This document shows, in pieces, positions 3,809 through 28,644 of a stretch of DNA of 64,000 nt. The position numbers and the translations under genes were made by a program. How positions within the stretch are numbered: position 1 is the first letter of the stretch; every line of letters starts with the position of its first letter. Under the pieces are notes generated by a model. It saw only the letters and a list, made by a program, of their open reading frames with translations, was not told where the DNA came from and ran no database searches. This DNA comes from Eubacteriales bacterium (GTDB lineage: Bacteria > Bacillota > Clostridia > Peptostreptococcales > Anaerovoracaceae): NCBI GenBank assembly GCA_028704515.1, contig JAQWFH010000004.1:1-64000 (forward strand), read 5' to 3'.

Positions 3809-3984
3809 ACTTCTAAATATGTTATTCCAGGATTGTATCATAATATTCTCCTGCACAATCAACATATCAAGAATTCCACGGGTATAATCCAACTTATCTG
3901 AAATCATCAATATTCATATTTAAAATGCTTTTTCCTGCTGTTCTGGGAATTATAATCTAAAATTATCTCAAACTACTACAATAA

Positions 3985-4016
3985 TATTAAAATAACCCAA
4001 TTTTAATTAATTGGGT
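3985..4016 (-). terminator. Possible terminator of yneA
   Basis: ACCCAATT at 3995-4002 pairs with AATTGGGT at 4009-4016. Read on the minus strand the hairpin is followed by TATTTTAATATTAT. It lies about 85 bases after the yneA stop. The stem is AT-rich, so termination may be weak. Confidence 0.45.
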
Positions 4017-4098
4017 ATATGAAAGACAATACAGCTAAACAAGACCCTAATGCGAGCCCCTATTTTACGTTTTAACGGACTTTTTTTAAGTTTTGGCA

Positions 4099-4416
4099 TT
4101 ATCCCTCCTGCGCAAGATACATAGGCACCTTTATAATTTGTCCAGGATAGATCTGTGCCGATTCAAGATCATTAATCGTGCATAATTTGTGAACGGCTCT
4201 TCTTATTTCGGTATCAGGCATATATTCGGAAGCAATTTCCCATAATGTATCGCCGTTTTCAATTGAAACTGTTTTGTATTCAATTTTTGTTAAGCTTGCC
4301 GCATCATATATTCCTAAAATTCCATTCGCACTTGTAAGTATGGCAAGCATCATAACTACGACAAATGCAGTAAATCTCAATCGCGATTTTATTCTATATT
4401 TTTTTTTATTATTCAT
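4099..4416 (-). CDS. yneA: YneA-like LysM protein, SOS cell-division inhibitor
   Basis: Small membrane-anchored protein of 105 residues. A basic N-terminus (MNNKKKYRIKSR) leads into one transmembrane segment at about 13-35, then a LysM domain at about 46-100 (ENGDTLWEIASEY; IYPGQIIKVP). This is the architecture of Bacillus YneA, which delays division during DNA damage. The assignment rests on size, architecture and the three LexA boxes over the promoter, which a generic LysM protein would not have. Start: GGAGG upstream of the ATG. lexA itself is not in the window. A plain cell-wall LysM protein under SOS control is the alternative. Confidence 0.8.
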   Translation of the reverse strand: MNNKKKYRIKSRLRFTAFVVVMMLAILTSANGILGIYDAASLTKIEYKTVSIENGDTLWEIASEYMPDTEIRRAVHKLCTINDLESAQIYPGQIIKVPMYLAQEG

Positions 4417-10928: not shown

Positions 10929-11848
10929 TTGAGGATTTCTCCTATACAATCCGGTTCTTTTGCGTATTCCGAAATATTAAACCATTTTATGTCCTCGTAT
11001 CGGCGGAACCAAGTCCATTGCCTCTTTGCTAAATGTCTTGTATTTTTTTTTATAAGATCTATTGCTTCATCTTTTTCGTATTCTCCATTGAAAAATTCTA
11101 TTATCTCTTTGTAGCCTATACCTTTCATTGCTATATCATTTATAGAAAGTCCCATATCCAGCAATTCTTGGACTTCCCCAAACAATCCTTGTTGAACAAG
11201 TATATCAACTCTTTTATTAACGCGTTCGTACAACTCCTCCCTATTTCTCGTAAGACCTATAAGCGTATATTCATAATCCTCCGTCGGTATAAGTGCTTCA
11301 GAAAACTCCCTATTTTTTTCACCTGTGAGCTCATATATTTCTATTGCTCTGACGACCTTTTTTAAATTGTTTGGATGTATGCGTTCAGCTGCCTCAGGAT
11401 CAATTTCATTAAGGATTGAATGCACATATTCCTTGCCTTTTTCTTCAGCAAGTTCAAAAAGTTCTTTCCTTCTCGAATTGTAAATATCATTATCTCTCGG
11501 CGATGCGGAAAAGTCCATATCATAAATTATAGAATTTACATAAAGCCCCGTACCACCTGACACAACGGGATGCATCCCGCGTGCAAAAATATCTTCAATT
11601 GCCTCTTTTGCAAGCCTTTGATATTTCCCGACAGAAAATGGCTCTCGAGGATCTATACAGTCCACAAGGTGATGGTGGCAGGCTTCCCTTTCTTCTTTTG
11701 TGGGCTTTGCAGATCCTATATTCATAAACTTATAAATCTGCATGGAATCAGCATTGACGATTTCGCCGCCCAATGCGGATGCTATTTGTATTGTATAATC
11801 GGTTTTTCCCACTGCTGTAGGACCGCAAATTACAGTTATTTTTCTCAT
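10910..11848 (-). CDS. miaA: tRNA dimethylallyltransferase
   Basis: Transfers the dimethylallyl group from DMAPP to N6 of A37 in tRNAs reading UNN codons. The 312 residues are family length. P-loop GPTAVGKT at 8-15, then DSMQIY, VDCIDPREPFSVG and the substrate-site motif VSGGTGLYVN. Its start overlaps the mutL stop by four bases (ATGA), and its end overlaps the recombinase gene. DMAPP comes from the isoprenoid pathway whose genes dxs and ispA lie upstream in the same gene run. Confidence 0.97.
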   Translation of the reverse strand: MRKITVICGPTAVGKTDYTIQIASALGGEIVNADSMQIYKFMNIGSAKPTKEEREACHHHLVDCIDPREPFSVGKYQRLAKEAIEDIFARGMHPVVSGGTGLYVNSIIYDMDFSASPRDNDIYNSRRKELFELAEEKGKEYVHSILNEIDPEAAERIHPNNLKKVVRAIEIYELTGEKNREFSEALIPTEDYEYTLIGLTRNREELYERVNKRVDILVQQGLFGEVQELLDMGLSINDIAMKGIGYKEIIEFFNGEYEKDEAIDLIKKNTRHLAKRQWTWFRRYEDIKWFNISEYAKEPDCIGEILKWIKRE

Positions 11849-13704
11849 ATTCTCTTAAATAGTTTTTCTATTTCACCTTTTGTTATTTTGACGAATGTAG
11901 GCCTGCCATGAGGGCATGAATATGGATTTTCACATAAAGAAAGCTGCTTTATTAAAGCTTCTGCTCCTTCAAACGATAGCATATCGTTTGCCCTTACTGC
12001 CATTTTGCAAGCTTGCATTGCTATCTTTTCGGACTTTGCCTCGTCGAAATCGCCTTTTAATTCTCCCGCGCTTTCAATGAAGTGATTTAGGAATTGCTCA
12101 GCTTCTGATAATTCCATAAATATAGGTATCCCTCTTATATTATAAGCGTTCGGGCCGAATTCTTCAATATCGAAGCTCATTGCACGCAAATTATCGAGCC
12201 ACTGGCTTTCTTGGGACTTTTGGGCCGGTGATGCCTCTAAAATCAGGGGCATAAGCAGGGGCTGAATCATTTTCTCGGAATTTATATATTGTTTTTTTAT
12301 ATTTTCAAATAAAACTCTTTCATGGGCTGCATGCTGATCGAAAAGATATATTGCATCATCTAACACGCATGTTATATACGTTCCAAAAACTAATCCCATA
12401 GGCTTTAAAGCACTACAATCAAAGATTTTTTTCGATCCCACTGAATATTCCGTCGGTCTTTCATTAAGCTGGGATTCTTTCTTTTTATCTTGTTCCTCTC
12501 GTAATGTTGACAATAACTGTTTTATGTCAACCCGCGCCTCGCTTACATTGATAACTTCCGGAGATTCACTTGTATGAGTATTTTCATTGTCGTGCGTCGT
12601 GTCGCTTTCATCCACAATATCACTATACTGAACCTTGGGATTTTCAAGCTTTATCTGATCCGTTTTTTCCTTCGATTCCTGTATTTTGAAAAGCTTATCT
12701 GCTCTCATTTGTGGGATTGCGTTATTTACCGAAAGAGCTTCTTTTATAGCCATGTATACCATTTCCGTGACCATAGCCTCATCGTCAAAACGAATTTCCA
12801 TTTTATTCGGATGAATATTTACATCCAGCTTTTCGGGAGGTAAGTCAAGGAACAAGAAGGCTACAGGAAAACGCCCGCTAAATAATCTTTCAGAATACGC
12901 TTTATCAATGCCCTTCTCTATTATTTTACTTTTTATTGAACGGCCGTTCACAAAAAATATTTGAGTTTTGCGATTGCTCTGAGAAAGCGTGGGGTTTGAT
13001 ACATATCCCTTAATATTTCCGGCGTCAGTAGTCCCCTCAACCGGTACTAATTCTCTTCCGATTTCACTTCCGTAAATCGCAAGAATGTTTCTGTATGTAT
13101 CTCCGTTTCCGTTTGTTGAAAAGAGAACTTTATCGTTATTTATAATTGTGAATTTTATCTCAGGAAATGCAAGTGCTGCCTTTGAGACAAAGTCAATTAT
13201 ATGCATGCTTTCTGTGCTGTCGCTTTTCATGAATTTTAGACGTGCTGGCATATTATAAAATAAATCTGTGACGGTTATTGTAGTTCCATCCGGGGAACCC
13301 GTAGCTTTTATATCGGTTTTTTCTCCACCTTCGATGCGTACAACCGTTCCCACCTTGCTTTGCATCTTCTTTGTAATCAATTCAGTTCTCGATACCGAGG
13401 ATATGCTTGCAAGTGCTTCTCCTCTGAATCCGAGGGTCTTTATTCTAGCTAAATCGGTGTCGGAAACAATTTTGCTTGTAGCATGACGCATAAAGGCAAT
13501 CTCGGCTTCTTCTGCGGCAATTCCCGAGCCATTATCCGTCACTCTTATGTATTCCTTGCCGCCTTTCCTTATTTCGACAGTGACAGAATTAGCACCTGCA
13601 TCTATTGAGTTTTCAACGAGTTCCTTTACGACCGACAGGGGCCTGTCAACAACTTCCCCTGCTGCGATTTTATCGGCCACACTTTTACTCAATATTTGAA
13701 TCAT
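11845..13704 (-). CDS. mutL: DNA mismatch repair protein MutL
   Basis: Matchmaker and endonuclease of mismatch repair. The N-terminal GHKL ATPase shows KIAAGEVVDRP, ELVENSIDAGA, DNGSGI and TLGFRGEALASI. The C-terminal domain carries DQHAAHERVLFE, which fits the endonuclease metal motif DQHA-x2-E-x4-E found in MutL of organisms without MutH, and CPHGRPTF near the end. Length 619 is normal. Start: AAAGGAAG seven bases before the ATG. Two bases separate it from mutS. Confidence 0.98.
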   Translation of the reverse strand: MIQILSKSVADKIAAGEVVDRPLSVVKELVENSIDAGANSVTVEIRKGGKEYIRVTDNGSGIAAEEAEIAFMRHATSKIVSDTDLARIKTLGFRGEALASISSVSRTELITKKMQSKVGTVVRIEGGEKTDIKATGSPDGTTITVTDLFYNMPARLKFMKSDSTESMHIIDFVSKAALAFPEIKFTIINNDKVLFSTNGNGDTYRNILAIYGSEIGRELVPVEGTTDAGNIKGYVSNPTLSQSNRKTQIFFVNGRSIKSKIIEKGIDKAYSERLFSGRFPVAFLFLDLPPEKLDVNIHPNKMEIRFDDEAMVTEMVYMAIKEALSVNNAIPQMRADKLFKIQESKEKTDQIKLENPKVQYSDIVDESDTTHDNENTHTSESPEVINVSEARVDIKQLLSTLREEQDKKKESQLNERPTEYSVGSKKIFDCSALKPMGLVFGTYITCVLDDAIYLFDQHAAHERVLFENIKKQYINSEKMIQPLLMPLILEASPAQKSQESQWLDNLRAMSFDIEEFGPNAYNIRGIPIFMELSEAEQFLNHFIESAGELKGDFDEAKSEKIAMQACKMAVRANDMLSFEGAEALIKQLSLCENPYSCPHGRPTFVKITKGEIEKLFKRI

Positions 13705-24319: not shown

Positions 24320-24931
24320 TCAGTATTTACTTTGAATTATTATTCCTGAAGCAGATCTACCGGTTTCCCTCATTGTAATATCGTAAATTTTTGCAATATC
24401 CGATTGTGTAAGGTCTTGCTTGTTTACTGTTACATTTACAGCATTATCAGTAATCAAAACCATGCATTCAGGAAGGCCTTTTGTAAGAATTAGATTCTCA
24501 ATTGTCTTTTCCTTATCCATATATTCTATTATTTTCAGCTTCTGTGCGGATGCATTTTCTTTTTCGGTAGCTGTCTGCGCTTCTGCAATCACATCTGAAA
24601 GCATCGATATGATCTGATTCCTGTCCATATTAACCGTCGCTCTTGCTTCATTAAAATATGTGTCGCTGTTTTTTAAATCGGATATATCGTCCGATGTAAC
24701 CATTTCCGAAGGCAGTTCTCCGTTGCCCGCATCACCGGGTAATTTTGTAAGTTTGAGGCTGTCTACAAGAACATCTCCGTCATGAGGTGATATTTCAGGG
24801 CTTTCATCGTTGACATATTCCACATTTGCTTGCCTTGAATCATCTTTATTCAAGGTTGTAACACCGACCGTTGCTATACAAATTGTAAATACGCATACTC
24901 CTGCAATTATCAGCCTTTTCTTTTTATTCAT
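24320..24931 (-). CDS. spoIIIAH: Stage III sporulation protein AH
   Basis: Mother-cell membrane protein whose extracellular domain meets forespore SpoIIQ across the intermembrane space to form the feeding-tube channel. One N-terminal transmembrane segment (about 5-27) is followed by a linker and the YscJ/FliF-like ring domain in the C-terminal half (ENLILTKGLPECMVLITDNAVNVTV). The 203 residues are near family length. The ATG at 24931 has GGGGGAAAG upstream and overlaps spoIIIAG by 8 bases; an upstream start at 24946 is less likely. Confidence 0.95.
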   Translation of the reverse strand: MNKKKRLIIAGVCVFTICIATVGVTTLNKDDSRQANVEYVNDESPEISPHDGDVLVDSLKLTKLPGDAGNGELPSEMVTSDDISDLKNSDTYFNEARATVNMDRNQIISMLSDVIAEAQTATEKENASAQKLKIIEYMDKEKTIENLILTKGLPECMVLITDNAVNVTVNKQDLTQSDIAKIYDITMRETGRSASGIIIQSKY

Positions 24932-25307
24932 CACTCTTTCCCCCATTCTTTTCGAAAACCACTACGTTTGATGTAGGAATATCAAATATTACCGCTACAG
25001 CGTTTATCAGATCATTTTTTACTACCGGATTACCCGCTCCCGTAGCTGTTACAATAACGCCTTTCACTTCTCCGTCATTGTTTTCTTTCATCATAACGGT
25101 TACATCTCCCGCTCCTTTTATATCTGAAAGCATCACTTCAAGAGATGTTTCAGTGCCACCGTCAGAATCTACAATTTGTCTGCGACCGTCTCGATTATTG
25201 CTAAAAACATCTAAAGATAAAAATAAAATCGCAATTACTATAACAATACTCAGAGCTTTCATCAGAAAATCTCTCAGATCTCCGGCATTCTTAAGTTTTT
25301 CCCACAT
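24924..25307 (-). CDS. spoIIIAG: Stage III sporulation protein AG (short form)
   Basis: Ring-forming component of the SpoIIIA complex. A transmembrane segment (about 16-37, IVIVIAILFLSLDVF) precedes one ring-building domain (TSLEVMLSDIKGAGDVTVMM; PVVKNDLINAVAVIFDIP). At 127 residues it is much shorter than B. subtilis SpoIIIAG (about 229), mostly by loss of linker sequence. The ATG at 25307 is chosen because GGAGGG precedes it by seven bases. Confidence 0.9.
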   Translation of the reverse strand: MWEKLKNAGDLRDFLMKALSIVIVIAILFLSLDVFSNNRDGRRQIVDSDGGTETSLEVMLSDIKGAGDVTVMMKENNDGEVKGVIVTATGAGNPVVKNDLINAVAVIFDIPTSNVVVFEKNGGKSDE

Positions 25308-25346
25308 ACAGGTTCCCTCCATAAAATATATTAAAAAGGCAATTGC

Positions 25347-25514
25347 TTATGCAATAAAATATCTTAACGGTGATAATATAACCGCCAAAATCATAATTGA
25401 AAAAATATATTTCAAGTATTTGCTCATATCTCCTTCCGGCAACAATATCTCCACAAATGACAAACTTAAAACAATCATGAAAATATTTTTTACCCACTCA
25501 TTTACCTCGTTCAC
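25347..25514 (-). CDS. spoIIIAF: Stage III sporulation protein AF, drastically shortened
   Basis: A 55-residue frame between spoIIIAE and spoIIIAG. It starts with GTG at 25514, overlapping the spoIIIAE stop by four bases (GTGA), with GGAGG upstream. The protein (NEVNEWVKNIFMIVLSLSF, then VEILLPEGDMSKYLKYI) matches the N-terminal two-helix membrane region of SpoIIIAF, including the ELLLP..MxKY pattern, and then stops after LSPLRYFIA. The roughly 150-residue soluble domain of typical SpoIIIAF is absent, and the 39 bases before spoIIIAG leave no room for it. The stop does not look like a recent frameshift. Confidence 0.82.
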   Translation of the reverse strand: MNEVNEWVKNIFMIVLSLSFVEILLPEGDMSKYLKYIFSIMILAVILSPLRYFIA

Positions 25515-26587
25515 CTTGCAGCTCCTCCTATGCCAATCAATACAGAAATGAATATCAAAAACATCATCGATGTCAATATTAGTATTACTACAAGAGTTGC
25601 CGTTGCATTTCCCATTTCATTTAAACTCTCGCTTATGTTTTTTTCGCCAATTGGTTCTGTTATAATTGCAGTAAATTTATATATGATTGCCAGAGCAAGT
25701 AGCTTTATAATCGGCATGATAAGCAATGAGCAAATTACTATAATTCCCAAAACACCGATACCGCTTTTTATAATTGCAATGCAGGAGAGAACCATATCGA
25801 CTGAATCTGCGGCAAAGCCCCCGACAATAGGAACAAAATTACTGAGTGAAAACCTTGCGGTATTTATTAAGAGCCCATCGGCCGATTTTGCAACAAATCC
25901 CTGTATGAGCGTAAGTCCGGAAAATATTGTTGCACAGAATCCCGTTGCAATTGCGGCCGCGCTTCTCAGGAAGGATGCTAACGTTTTGACATATGATTTT
26001 TCAGTCATACCATTTATTAGAAAAAATACTGTAGATACGAATATCATAGGCAGCATTACCTTGAGCAGTAATGTATTGAATGCTGTTATAGATGCTATCA
26101 TAAGGGGATTTAGTAGGCTGCCTGATGTAATTCCACCCATTGAAATTAACAGTGGTATTAGTATGGGAAGTAAAATCTGCATGGTATATGTCATTGTAGC
26201 TATCGTATCCGCGCATAAATCATATGTATAAGTAAAGTTTTTCATGCAGAGTGCTATAACGAAAAATGAGCAAACCAGCAGTCCTATATTTGAAACCGTT
26301 TTTTCGCCGAACGATGAAGAAATACTTTTGAGGAGGCCAATAAAAATACAGACCGCAATAATTTGCGCTGCCAATATCATTGCGCTTTTGATTTCAAAAA
26401 GAAGCAAATCCTTAAAACTATTTATAAGGACATCGGTATCAAAAATCGCCTTCCCCGAAACGAAATTTTCTATAAGCGATTCCCCCGTTATATCCGAAAA
26501 CGGCGTTTCTGTACTTCTTAAAATTTCTTCAAGCTCATTTAATTTTAGTTCATTTAGTCTTTCGGCTATATATTCTTTGTAATCCAT
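25511..26587 (-). CDS. spoIIIAE: Stage III sporulation protein AE
   Basis: Polytopic mother-cell membrane protein of the SpoIIIA-SpoIIQ channel. The 358 residues hold an N-terminal soluble stretch (about 1-70) and roughly seven or eight hydrophobic segments. Family sequence includes LIPLLISMGGITSGSLLNPLM, LSNFVPIVGGFAADSVD and ILTSMMFLIFISVLIGIGGAAR at the C-terminus. Upstream site is weak (AGGTGA). Ninth-base gap from spoIIIAD suggests coupled translation. Confidence 0.96.
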   Translation of the reverse strand: MDYKEYIAERLNELKLNELEEILRSTETPFSDITGESLIENFVSGKAIFDTDVLINSFKDLLLFEIKSAMILAAQIIAVCIFIGLLKSISSSFGEKTVSNIGLLVCSFFVIALCMKNFTYTYDLCADTIATMTYTMQILLPILIPLLISMGGITSGSLLNPLMIASITAFNTLLLKVMLPMIFVSTVFFLINGMTEKSYVKTLASFLRSAAAIATGFCATIFSGLTLIQGFVAKSADGLLINTARFSLSNFVPIVGGFAADSVDMVLSCIAIIKSGIGVLGIIVICSLLIMPIIKLLALAIIYKFTAIITEPIGEKNISESLNEMGNATATLVVILILTSMMFLIFISVLIGIGGAAR

Positions 26588-26595
26588 ATTTTCAC

Positions 26596-26979
26596 CTATA
26601 AAATAGTGTTGATTAGATCCAAAACCGAAAGGAATATGGGCATAGAGAGATAAAAGATTATAACCTTTCCCGCAAATTCTACCTTATTTCCGATAGCGCT
26701 CTCCCCCGCATCCTTGCAAAGCTGAGCGGTAAAATCAGCCATATAAGCAATTGCTAATATCTTTATAAGAATAGGGAAAAAGGTTTTCCCATAAGAAATT
26801 TGTTCATATAGTGATTGTAAGAAAGACAGTACGATTGCAAGCTTGTCGGCAATTAAAAAAAAGATGATTATTACAGTGCATATTACTATGTATATCCCAA
26901 ATTCTTTTTTTATATTTTTCATCAGGGAAACTGTCAAAACCCCGGCAAGAGCTATGCCGATAATCTTCATTATTTCCAT
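26596..26979 (-). CDS. spoIIIAD: Stage III sporulation protein AD
   Basis: Membrane protein of 127 residues with three or four transmembrane segments, typical of SpoIIIAD (IIGIALAGVLTVSLMKN at the start; KILAIAYMADFTAQLCKDAGESAIGNKVEFAGK in the centre, in two stretches of the family pattern). Start: AGGAG six bases before the ATG. Nine bases after spoIIIAC. Confidence 0.95.
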   Translation of the reverse strand: MEIMKIIGIALAGVLTVSLMKNIKKEFGIYIVICTVIIIFFLIADKLAIVLSFLQSLYEQISYGKTFFPILIKILAIAYMADFTAQLCKDAGESAIGNKVEFAGKVIIFYLSMPIFLSVLDLINTIL

Positions 26980-26988
26980 GCTTTGCTC

Positions 26989-27189
26989 CTAAAGATTAAA
27001 CAAGGTGCGCAATGTTTCAAAAAATTCACTGATCATATTTACAATCAAAAATAGGACAATTATTATCCCCGCAAGAGTCATAAGCAACGCTTGATCCTCT
27101 CGACCCGCTCTGACGAGTATTTGATTTAAAACGGCAACGGCGATCCCTATCCCCGCAATTTTAAATATTATATCTATATCGAATCCCAT
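26989..27189 (-). CDS. spoIIIAC: Stage III sporulation protein AC
   Basis: The 66-residue membrane protein with two hydrophobic segments: DIIFKIAGIGIAVAVLNQ and LLMTLAGIIIVLFLIVNMI. GREDQA in between is the family loop. Start: AGGAG before the ATG. Probable partner of SpoIIIAD in the membrane. Confidence 0.95.
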   Translation of the reverse strand: MGFDIDIIFKIAGIGIAVAVLNQILVRAGREDQALLMTLAGIIIVLFLIVNMISEFFETLRTLFNL

Positions 27190-27198
27190 GTTTTTCTC

Positions 27199-27717
27199 CT
27201 ATATAATCAATATTACTATCGTTATCCCAACAACAAATCCCATACCGGTGAACATTTTTCCTTTTGTCCTGCTATCATTTATGGCATCGTTTAGATTTTC
27301 CTTTAACTCCTCTATGTGCATGTAGAGGAATTCCTCCTGGCTCTGAGATGAAGAAATCCCTAAATTGGCTCCAATTTCAATCATTATTTTCATATCCTCA
27401 GGTAGAAGGGAAGAGTTCATATAAACCCTTTTTATCGATTCTTCCCATGCTTCTGAAAGAGGGCAGATTTTTCTTTCTTCATATATTTGTGCTGCCTCGC
27501 TGCAAACGAAGTGTGCCGAATCCTTTTTTAGCCTTCCCATTTTTTTTAATAGCTCAGGCAAAGGATCGAGCTTATATGTCATTTCGGTTTTAAGTGTACG
27601 TGTCATCTTTATAAATTCTTCAAGAAGCGAAACTCTTTCCCTGTAATCATACGCTTTGAAGATTCCTATGCCTGCACAGCCCCCGATTATGAGAAGATAA
27701 AGGAGTATGTTAAGCAT
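27199..27717 (-). CDS. spoIIIAB: Stage III sporulation protein AB
   Basis: Mother-cell protein with a transmembrane segment at each end (LLYLLIIGGCAGIGIFK; MFTGMGFVVGITIVILII) and a helical cytoplasmic middle resembling the T2SF/T4P assembly domain GspF, as known for SpoIIIAB. I chose the ATG at 27717: GGGAGGGAA precedes it, it overlaps spoIIIAA by 8 bases, and the protein is 172 residues as usual. Confidence 0.94.
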   Translation of the reverse strand: MLNILLYLLIIGGCAGIGIFKAYDYRERVSLLEEFIKMTRTLKTEMTYKLDPLPELLKKMGRLKKDSAHFVCSEAAQIYEERKICPLSEAWEESIKRVYMNSSLLPEDMKIMIEIGANLGISSSQSQEEFLYMHIEELKENLNDAINDSRTKGKMFTGMGFVVGITIVILII

Positions 27718-28618
27718 TTCCCTTCCCTCCCAAAATGCGTGATACTGTGCAAGGATTAGGAACGGATGTAAGAAATACAATTCTACCGAATGCCCCTTTC
27801 TTTACAAGCGGATAAATATTATTTCTCTTGAGCTCTTCCATGCTTCCCCCGTGCAATGTGGTTATAAATTTTATACCTGCCGACAGAAGAGCTTCTATGG
27901 CCTCAATTTCTTGACGTTTGCCTATTTCATCCGTAACAACTATATCAGGAGCCATCGATCTAAGCAGCATAAGCATTCCTTCCCCTTTTGGACACCCCGT
28001 CATAACATCTGTGTTTGCACCTATATCGAAGGAAGGCTGTCCGCAATACATTCCTGCAATCTCGGATCTTTCGTCACATATTGATATGTTCATACCGCGG
28101 CCGGACAAACTTCTAACTATATCTCTCAGAAGTGTTGTTTTTCCACACTTGGGTGGGGAGACTATTAAGGTATTGTGAAGCCTTCCCTCTCTGTCAAACA
28201 ATGCCGGGATAATTTTTTCTGAAACACCGATATATTCCTTGGAGCATCTCAAATTTATGGATGAAATATCCTTAATAAGCCGAATACATCCATTTTCAAC
28301 TACAGCCTTTCCGCATATACCCGCCCTGTGACCTCCCGTCAATGTAATATAGCCATTTCTCAGTTCTTCCTCATGGGCGTAATACGAATAATCTAAAAAT
28401 GAATTAATAGTATCATTAAGTAATTTTTTATTACACACTAAGCTTCCTTCATATTTCTTGCTTCCACAGCAAAATACAATCTTTTGCCCAGATCTCATGC
28501 GCACTTCTTCAATGGAATTCAAGCTTTGATAAGACAGTAATTCTAGTTCTTTTTCGATTTCAGCAGGTATCTGCCTAAGGGCGGCAAAAAAACTGCTGTC
28601 TCGTCTTTCGTCTCTCAT
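27710..28618 (-). CDS. spoIIIAA: Stage III sporulation protein AA (ATPase)
   Basis: AAA-type ATPase, related to type II/IV secretion ATPases, that energises the SpoIIIA channel. Walker A is PPKCGKTT, followed by RDIVRSLSGRG, DERSEIAG and Walker B-like IVVTDEIGKRQEIEAI. GHRAGICGKAV upstream is a family signature. About 302 residues. The first ATG (28630) touches its purine-rich site without a spacer, so the ATG at 28618 is preferred; the choice is not firm. First gene of spoIIIAA-AH, which is expected to be sigma-E dependent. Confidence 0.94.
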   Translation of the reverse strand: MRDERRDSSFFAALRQIPAEIEKELELLSYQSLNSIEEVRMRSGQKIVFCCGSKKYEGSLVCNKKLLNDTINSFLDYSYYAHEEELRNGYITLTGGHRAGICGKAVVENGCIRLIKDISSINLRCSKEYIGVSEKIIPALFDREGRLHNTLIVSPPKCGKTTLLRDIVRSLSGRGMNISICDERSEIAGMYCGQPSFDIGANTDVMTGCPKGEGMLMLLRSMAPDIVVTDEIGKRQEIEAIEALLSAGIKFITTLHGGSMEELKRNNIYPLVKKGAFGRIVFLTSVPNPCTVSRILGGKGNA

Positions 28619-28644
28619 ATCCTCGTCCATCCTTTCACATTAAC

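Follow-up and report, generated by a model that had tools for sequence, protein, structure and literature searches.

The usual picture of SpoIIIA is that of a conduit made of several rings. Which of its parts can be dispensed with is the question raised by a locus from a bacterium of the Anaerovoracaceae, where the gene in the position of spoIIIAF has 55 codons. The locus lies in a stretch of 64,000 nucleotides (the window; contig JAQWFH010000004.1, positions 1 to 64,000), which contains no N and belongs to a 1.93-Mb assembly, 98.2% complete (genome G000). The window harbours a complete spoIIIA operon on its minus strand, with the genes in order from spoIIIAA to spoIIIAH:

27710..28630, minus strand: spoIIIAA (ATPase); Pfam/TIGR profiles
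27199..27723, minus strand: spoIIIAB, 174 codons from 27723; Pfam/TIGR profiles
26989..27189, minus strand: spoIIIAC; Pfam/TIGR profiles
26596..26979, minus strand: spoIIIAD; Pfam/TIGR profiles
25511..26587, minus strand: spoIIIAE, 358 codons, its stop overlapping the spoIIIAF start by 4 bases; ORF, Pfam/TIGR profiles
25523..25529, minus strand: Shine-Dalgarno sequence AGGAGGA of spoIIIAF, within the end of spoIIIAE and 8 bases upstream of the start; read directly
25347..25514, minus strand: spoIIIAF, transmembrane hairpin only; ORF, Pfam/TIGR profiles, relatives, structure model
25308..25346, minus strand: gap of 39 bases from the spoIIIAF stop to the spoIIIAG ATG, holding GGAGGG; read directly
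24924..25307, minus strand: spoIIIAG, 127 codons: one helix, the linker DGRRQIVDSDGG and a minimal ring-building motif without the B. subtilis insert
24320..24946, minus strand: spoIIIAH, 208 codons when counted from the first ATG, matching PF12685 in full; Pfam

The spoIIIAF ORF opens with GTG, within the GTGA shared with the spoIIIAE stop, and closes with TAA. It is the sixth gene of the operon, flanked by spoIIIAE and spoIIIAG, and the same order was found in the 71 relatives measured. The Pfam profile of SpoIIIAF (PF09581, Spore_III_AF) matches the encoded protein with 32.2 bits (gathering threshold 28.3) at profile positions 3-40 of 185, and the NCBI equivalog TIGR02896 matches at positions 3-49 of 106 with 47.7 bits, under its cut-off of 61.3. 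The PF09581 match thus stops at position 40 of 185, and the C-terminal ring-building domain is absent from the window protein. A structure model (mean pLDDT 90) consists of two helices, 2-24 and 29-46, separated by a short loop with the conserved sequence LLPxGxMxKYLKF. Since the ring domain is missing and the equivalog cut-off is not reached, we call the product a hairpin-only variant of SpoIIIAF, not a full SpoIIIAF. The 39-base gap downstream leaves no room there for a ring domain. An earlier note, made from the letters of this DNA, had described a SpoIIIAF cut to a 55-residue membrane hairpin, with an intact start, coupling to spoIIIAE, no space for the missing domain, and a gene short enough to be easily missed. 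These points are borne out by the data above, the last one by the TIGR02896 score, with which presence/absence calls made with this NCBI model would miss spoIIIAF.

In the sister genome G001, SpoIIIAF also has 55 residues and is 85% identical to that of the window, with saturated synonymous sites; this conservation excludes both chance and sequencing error as the origin of the 55-codon gene. A frameshift or assembly error, the alternative that the note had proposed to look for near 25347, has the short length as the sole point in its favour. Besides the sister species, another 52 genomes have the short form, among them G071, G163, G191 and G194, each a single contig, and the ribosome site of spoIIIAG comes straight after the spoIIIAF stop. 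We consider the probability of such an error to be negligible, and it was discarded on the strength of the sister species and the complete genomes. The stretch 25347-25514 is a genuine spoIIIAF that ends ahead of the ring domain.

Among 247 Anaerovoracaceae genomes searched, spoIIIAE was detected in 73 and undetectable in 174. SpoIIIAF could be measured in 71 of these 73, loci L059 and L074 being left out because SpoIIIAE lies at contig ends. Its length is 50-63 amino acids in 54/71 genomes (18 of 27 genera), the four single-contig genomes among them, 125-127 in 5/71 (3 genera) and 137-189 in 12/71 (6 genera). The 55-residue form is found in Anaerovorax odorimutans DSM 5092 (a genus that NCBI classifies under Anaerovoracaceae, Peptostreptococcales), Clostridium aminobutyricum DSM 2634 and Sinanaerobacter chloroacetimidivorans BAD-6; SpoIIIAF of Bacilliculturomica massiliensis has 177 residues. 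In C. aminobutyricum DSM 2634 the 55-residue protein goes with a SpoIIIAG of 128 residues. The short SpoIIIAF is the commonest state in Anaerovoracaceae and is not peculiar to the window genome. The proteins of 125-127 residues (L029, L032, L033, L035 and L075; genera g8, g23 and g32) contain the first part of the ring domain only and share a C-terminal tail resembling SIPWxDIYS; they represent either an intermediate or a new short tail.

We extended the comparison to other Clostridia, as the note had suggested. A search of the order matched 115/247 genomes, 22 of them family members; in the other families, the main SpoIIIAF matches sit in open frames at least 173 long, and in 4 of the 93 non-family genomes a second match, or the only one, is weak and probably due to chance. 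A search of the class matched 262/391 genomes. Lengths were obtained for 150 of these 262 (none in the family), and 80 of the other 110 non-family genomes were covered by a second search; open frames, being measured from stop to stop, slightly overestimate gene length. Short SpoIIIAF were found in G677 (55 amino acids), G667 (68) and G580 (83). spoIIIAE was present in 13 of 80 class genomes without a SpoIIIAF match; the downstream region could be read in 12 of them and encodes 137-171 amino acids in 11 and 58 in G438, where the short SpoIIIAF is paired with a SpoIIIAG of 120 amino acids. The short form is thus also found in at least four clostridial families besides Anaerovoracaceae (f84, f82, f73 and f24), and in one of them it comes with an equally minimal SpoIIIAG. 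In G677 (L077), spoIIIAG lies in the same frame as the hairpin gene, 12 bases past its TAG stop. In G586 (L079), the region 12-619 downstream of the spoIIIAE stop holds an 82-amino-acid hairpin ORF and an overlapping 126-amino-acid ORF resembling the ring domain, which is either a natural split gene or a frameshift.

A diverged gene located elsewhere could supply the ring domain in trans, so that the machine would still contain a SpoIIIAF ring. A profile of the ring domain (A2), built from 12 long-SpoIIIAF relatives, recovered 11/12 in-family long controls, the one missed being the already eroded 137-amino-acid protein of G158, and detected the domain in 0/54 short-SpoIIIAF genomes, including that of the window. 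TIGR02896 matched a single additional place in G000 with an E value of 0.55, at chance level, and this candidate was discarded; the note's caveat of a full-length SpoIIIAF encoded elsewhere thus found no counterpart in G000 with either profile. Ring-building motifs diverge fast, and A2 recovered just 3/6 controls from other families of the order, so that a diverged copy could escape the search; the arrangement in G586, from another family, where the ring domain looks like a separate ORF overlapping the hairpin ORF, also speaks for supply in trans. Against it stand the clear difference between short genomes and in-family controls, the single SpoIIIAG-like locus per genome in 12/12 cases, and an operon without room for the domain. 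Taken together, supply in trans seems quite improbable. A search of solved structures with A2 gave no credible match (best E value 0.22), and the identity of the lost domain therefore rests on the coverage of PF09581 in long relatives and on the literature.

The hairpin is under purifying selection. dN/dS ranges from 0.009 to 0.28 across the 15 pairs of short SpoIIIAF with estimable dS, synonymous sites being saturated in 4 further pairs (for pair L034-L036, the SpoIIIAE values, based on 4 codons, are void). In an alignment of 49 short sequences, two residues (F20 and P26) never vary and six others (W7, L24, Y33, F38, S39 and P49) hardly do. Among long SpoIIIAF, six pairs show higher conservation in residues 1-50 (0.50-0.92) than in the remainder (0.23-0.74), as illustrated by one pair with 0.62 in the first 50 residues and 0.23 beyond.

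SpoIIIAG is reduced as well. The window protein has 127 residues from the ATG at 25307 (132 if the alternative first ATG at 25322 is used) and scores 42.2 bits against TIGR02830 (cut-off 147.7). Its model shows a membrane helix followed by a helix-strand-strand-helix-strand arrangement, that is, a ring-building motif, and lacks the insert found between the two central strands of B. subtilis SpoIIIAG. The nearest solved folds are PrgK, EscJ, SpoIIIAG and FliF, with modest but consistent E values (0.0016-0.012), and SpoIIIAF (6DCS) comes further down. The note had listed this protein as shortened: the length stands, but the loss is that of an insert and the ring-building motif is kept. A family SpoIIIAG profile aligned with B. 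subtilis SpoIIIAG (5WC3) with an E value of 3e-12, leaving one insert of about 55 residues of 5WC3 unmatched; the ring-building motif is thus common to both, the insert belonging to the B. subtilis protein. SpoIIIAG has at most 165 residues in 71/71 family genomes, as compared to 183-204 in 14 loci of the order outside the family, used as outgroup, and the full-length insert is absent in all 71, some members having a shorter loop of about 15-20 residues in its place. B. subtilis SpoIIIAG forms a 30-fold ring with a cylindrical beta-barrel, according to the text excerpted from PMC8092281, and the insert missing from the family is probably what makes this beta-barrel.

The motif, judged by length, is kept in 68/71 genomes, its fold and sequence having been checked for the window protein. 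The three exceptions are the single-contig genomes G071, G163 and G191 of genus g71, in which SpoIIIAG is reduced to 75-76 residues and the motif is gone, with no other SpoIIIAG match anywhere in these genomes. These short proteins have dN/dS values of 0.16-0.18, and the PF12685 domain of SpoIIIAH is complete in G071. The linker of the window protein, DGRRQIVDSDGG, has a similar counterpart in most of the family; in the three g71 genomes (L007, L009 and L011) the linker DGRRQIVDE(D/N)GG is retained and the motif behind it has been deleted in frame. Because linker and helix were both kept despite this deletion, they seem to serve some function by themselves.

SpoIIIAG of 140 amino acids or less is present in 41/54 genomes with short SpoIIIAF and in 0/17 others. 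This nesting suggests an order of losses, beginning with the SpoIIIAG insert and continuing with the SpoIIIAF ring and then what was left of the SpoIIIAG loop, after which one group would have lost the SpoIIIAG motif too; the order rests on nested lengths and on a tree with uncertain long branches. In this quick tree of SpoIIIAB, SpoIIIAD and SpoIIIAE (72 rows, L075 being left out for too few columns), at least three changes are needed and 51 short rows form one clade (SH-aLRT 96). Genera g17 and g30, with long SpoIIIAF, branch first, and g46, g3 and g62 are found elsewhere on long branches. With the set thinned to 49 rows and a simpler model, the grouping of all short rows in one clade was not rejected (p 0.196), so that one loss of the SpoIIIAF ring within the family is possible. 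An earlier SpoIIIAE tree with distant outgroups suffered from long-branch trouble and was replaced.

Do these bacteria sporulate? SpoIVA is present in 72/73 family genomes with spoIIIAE (the exception being G110) and in 0/6 without it. A sigG-type match above 240 bits was obtained in 69/73 (all except G107, G179, G186 and G204), as compared to about 141 bits or less, the level of other sigma factors, in the six controls. G000, G071, G128 and G163 encode M23 proteins of 215-224 amino acids that share their gene neighbours and have a hydrophobic stretch at the N terminus; by resemblance these are putative SpoIIQ. Clostridium aminobutyricum, one of the species with the 55-residue form, is described as a spore former. 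As far as the available text of the sources goes, Anaerovorax odorimutans, the genus Aminipila and Anoxybacterium hadale are non-spore-forming by description (PMC11362086), a single paper gives both statements, spore-forming and not, for Emergencia timonensis (PMC10213047), and a preprint reports spores with appendages in an Anaerovoracaceae bacterium (PMC11952670).

These data bear on the possibility of decay, in which the lineage would be gradually losing sporulation and would tolerate the short SpoIIIAF as a leftover of little function. Sporulation is often lost in the family, given that 174/247 genomes lack detectable spoIIIAE; the available text of PMC11362086 describes several cultured members as non-spore-forming, among which A. 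odorimutans DSM 5092 carries the 55-residue form, and intermediate lengths of 125-137 amino acids occur. Decay of this kind is nevertheless hard to reconcile with purifying selection on the hairpin, with its uniform length of 50-63 amino acids over 18 genera and with the near-universal presence of SpoIVA alongside spoIIIAE. Moreover, the six tested genomes without spoIIIAE also lack SpoIVA, so that loss of sporulation looks all-or-none. We regard decay as unlikely.

Two sporulation genes of the family showed peculiarities of their own. In the complete genome G191, SpoIVA matches as two adjacent pieces in different frames (G191:C1:599961-601435), which suggests a frameshift. In four genomes, sigG is split at one common codon (..STYAVPM / IIGEIRR..): G017, G119 (L166/L167), G052 (L168/L169) and G090 (L170/L171). 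In G017 (L165, G017:C61:35000-51000), the halves lie at 3884-4405 (minus strand) and 11566-11862 (plus strand); a large serine recombinase (PF00239, PF07508, PF13408) adjoins the 3' half, and the 5' half is about 7.2 kb off on the opposite strand. Compared to the intact relatives G099 and G145, G017 has an inserted stretch of about 5 kb and an inverted stretch of 2.3 kb. A similar recombinase adjoins the 5' half in G090. We take this element to resemble the skin element of sigK; it perhaps works by inversion. Titles and abstract openings of the papers found on this subject gave no report of such an element. In the assembly of the window genome, we also examined the ORFs of contig C73 (L196, G000:C73:15600-18900), which resemble a Bacteroidetes conjugative element, so that this contig may be assembly contamination.

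We consider it rather probable that the SpoIIIA machine of the family has been pared in steps by loss of ring domains, with the SpoIIIAF hairpin kept throughout and left as a membrane subunit. The hairpin would be the working part of the protein. It would sit in the mother-cell membrane, its translation coupled to that of SpoIIIAE, and could pack with SpoIIIAE and SpoIIIAC/AD as a subunit of a membrane transporter. The accessible text of PMC2703783 describes SpoIIIAE, AF, AD, AG and AB of B. subtilis as coming down together from membranes, and places SpoIIIAE, AF, AD and AG in a single membrane complex. Should full-length SpoIIIAF have its soluble domain in the intermembrane space, both ends of the hairpin would face that space and its conserved basic loop would be on the side of the mother-cell cytoplasm, in which the SpoIIIAA ATPase would act; loop and helices may work with SpoIIIAE and this ATPase. 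The lost ring domain would have had an accessory role in the stacking of rings in the intermembrane space, and the link to the forespore would rest on SpoIIIAH, SpoIIQ and, where its motif is kept, SpoIIIAG.

The ring stack may instead have changed in composition, SpoIIIAG and SpoIIIAH carrying the conduit and having taken the place of the SpoIIIAF ring. This is compatible with stepwise loss for genomes like that of the window, and it agrees with the retention (by length) of the SpoIIIAG motif in 68/71 genomes and with the full SpoIIIAH domain in both the window and G071. It fits less well with the full-length SpoIIIAG insert missing in 71/71 genomes, and with the three genomes without the SpoIIIAG motif, in which SpoIIIAH alone remains; we hold a changed stack to be plausible at somewhat less than even chances. 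Under stepwise loss, only SpoIIIAH and SpoIIQ would be left to bridge the membranes in G071, G163 and G191, because their SpoIIIAG lacks the ring-building motif. A tentative extension, to which we also give somewhat less than even chances, is that the essential SpoIIIA core is the mother-cell membrane transporter (SpoIIIAA to SpoIIIAE and the SpoIIIAF hairpin) and not the SpoIIIAF/SpoIIIAG ring stack.

The hairpin-only protein shares its operon position and N-terminal hairpin with B. subtilis SpoIIIAF (PF09581, TIGR02896; ring domain 6DCS), but the latter has 206 residues in the available text of PMC3533761 instead of 55, the whole soluble ring-building domain being absent here. The same text lists SpoIIIAF among the genes of all spore-formers. 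The excerpts of PMC7924749 describe its complete loss in Planococcaceae and Lysinibacillus, several such species forming spores. These bacteria have in common with the window that SpoIIIAF is not needed in full; there, according to the same excerpts, the whole gene is gone together with SpoIIIAA and SpoIIIAB, whereas here only the domain is missing and the other spoIIIA genes stay. The portions available of the SpoIIIAF literature (PMC7924749, PMC3533761, PMC12720343, PMC2703783, PMC8092281 and PMC3416734) contain no report of a hairpin-only SpoIIIAF, and surveys of presence or absence with curated models may score such genes as missing.

Evolution has performed domain deletions in these bacteria: of the SpoIIIAF ring in 54 genomes, of the full SpoIIIAG insert family-wide and of the SpoIIIAG motif in three genomes. 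This sets apart what has been retained under selection (the hairpin of SpoIIIAF, the helix and linker of SpoIIIAG, and SpoIIIAH) from what has been allowed to go. Selection and gene content suggest that the reduced apparatus works, in which case it would tell which parts of the SpoIIIA machine are essential.
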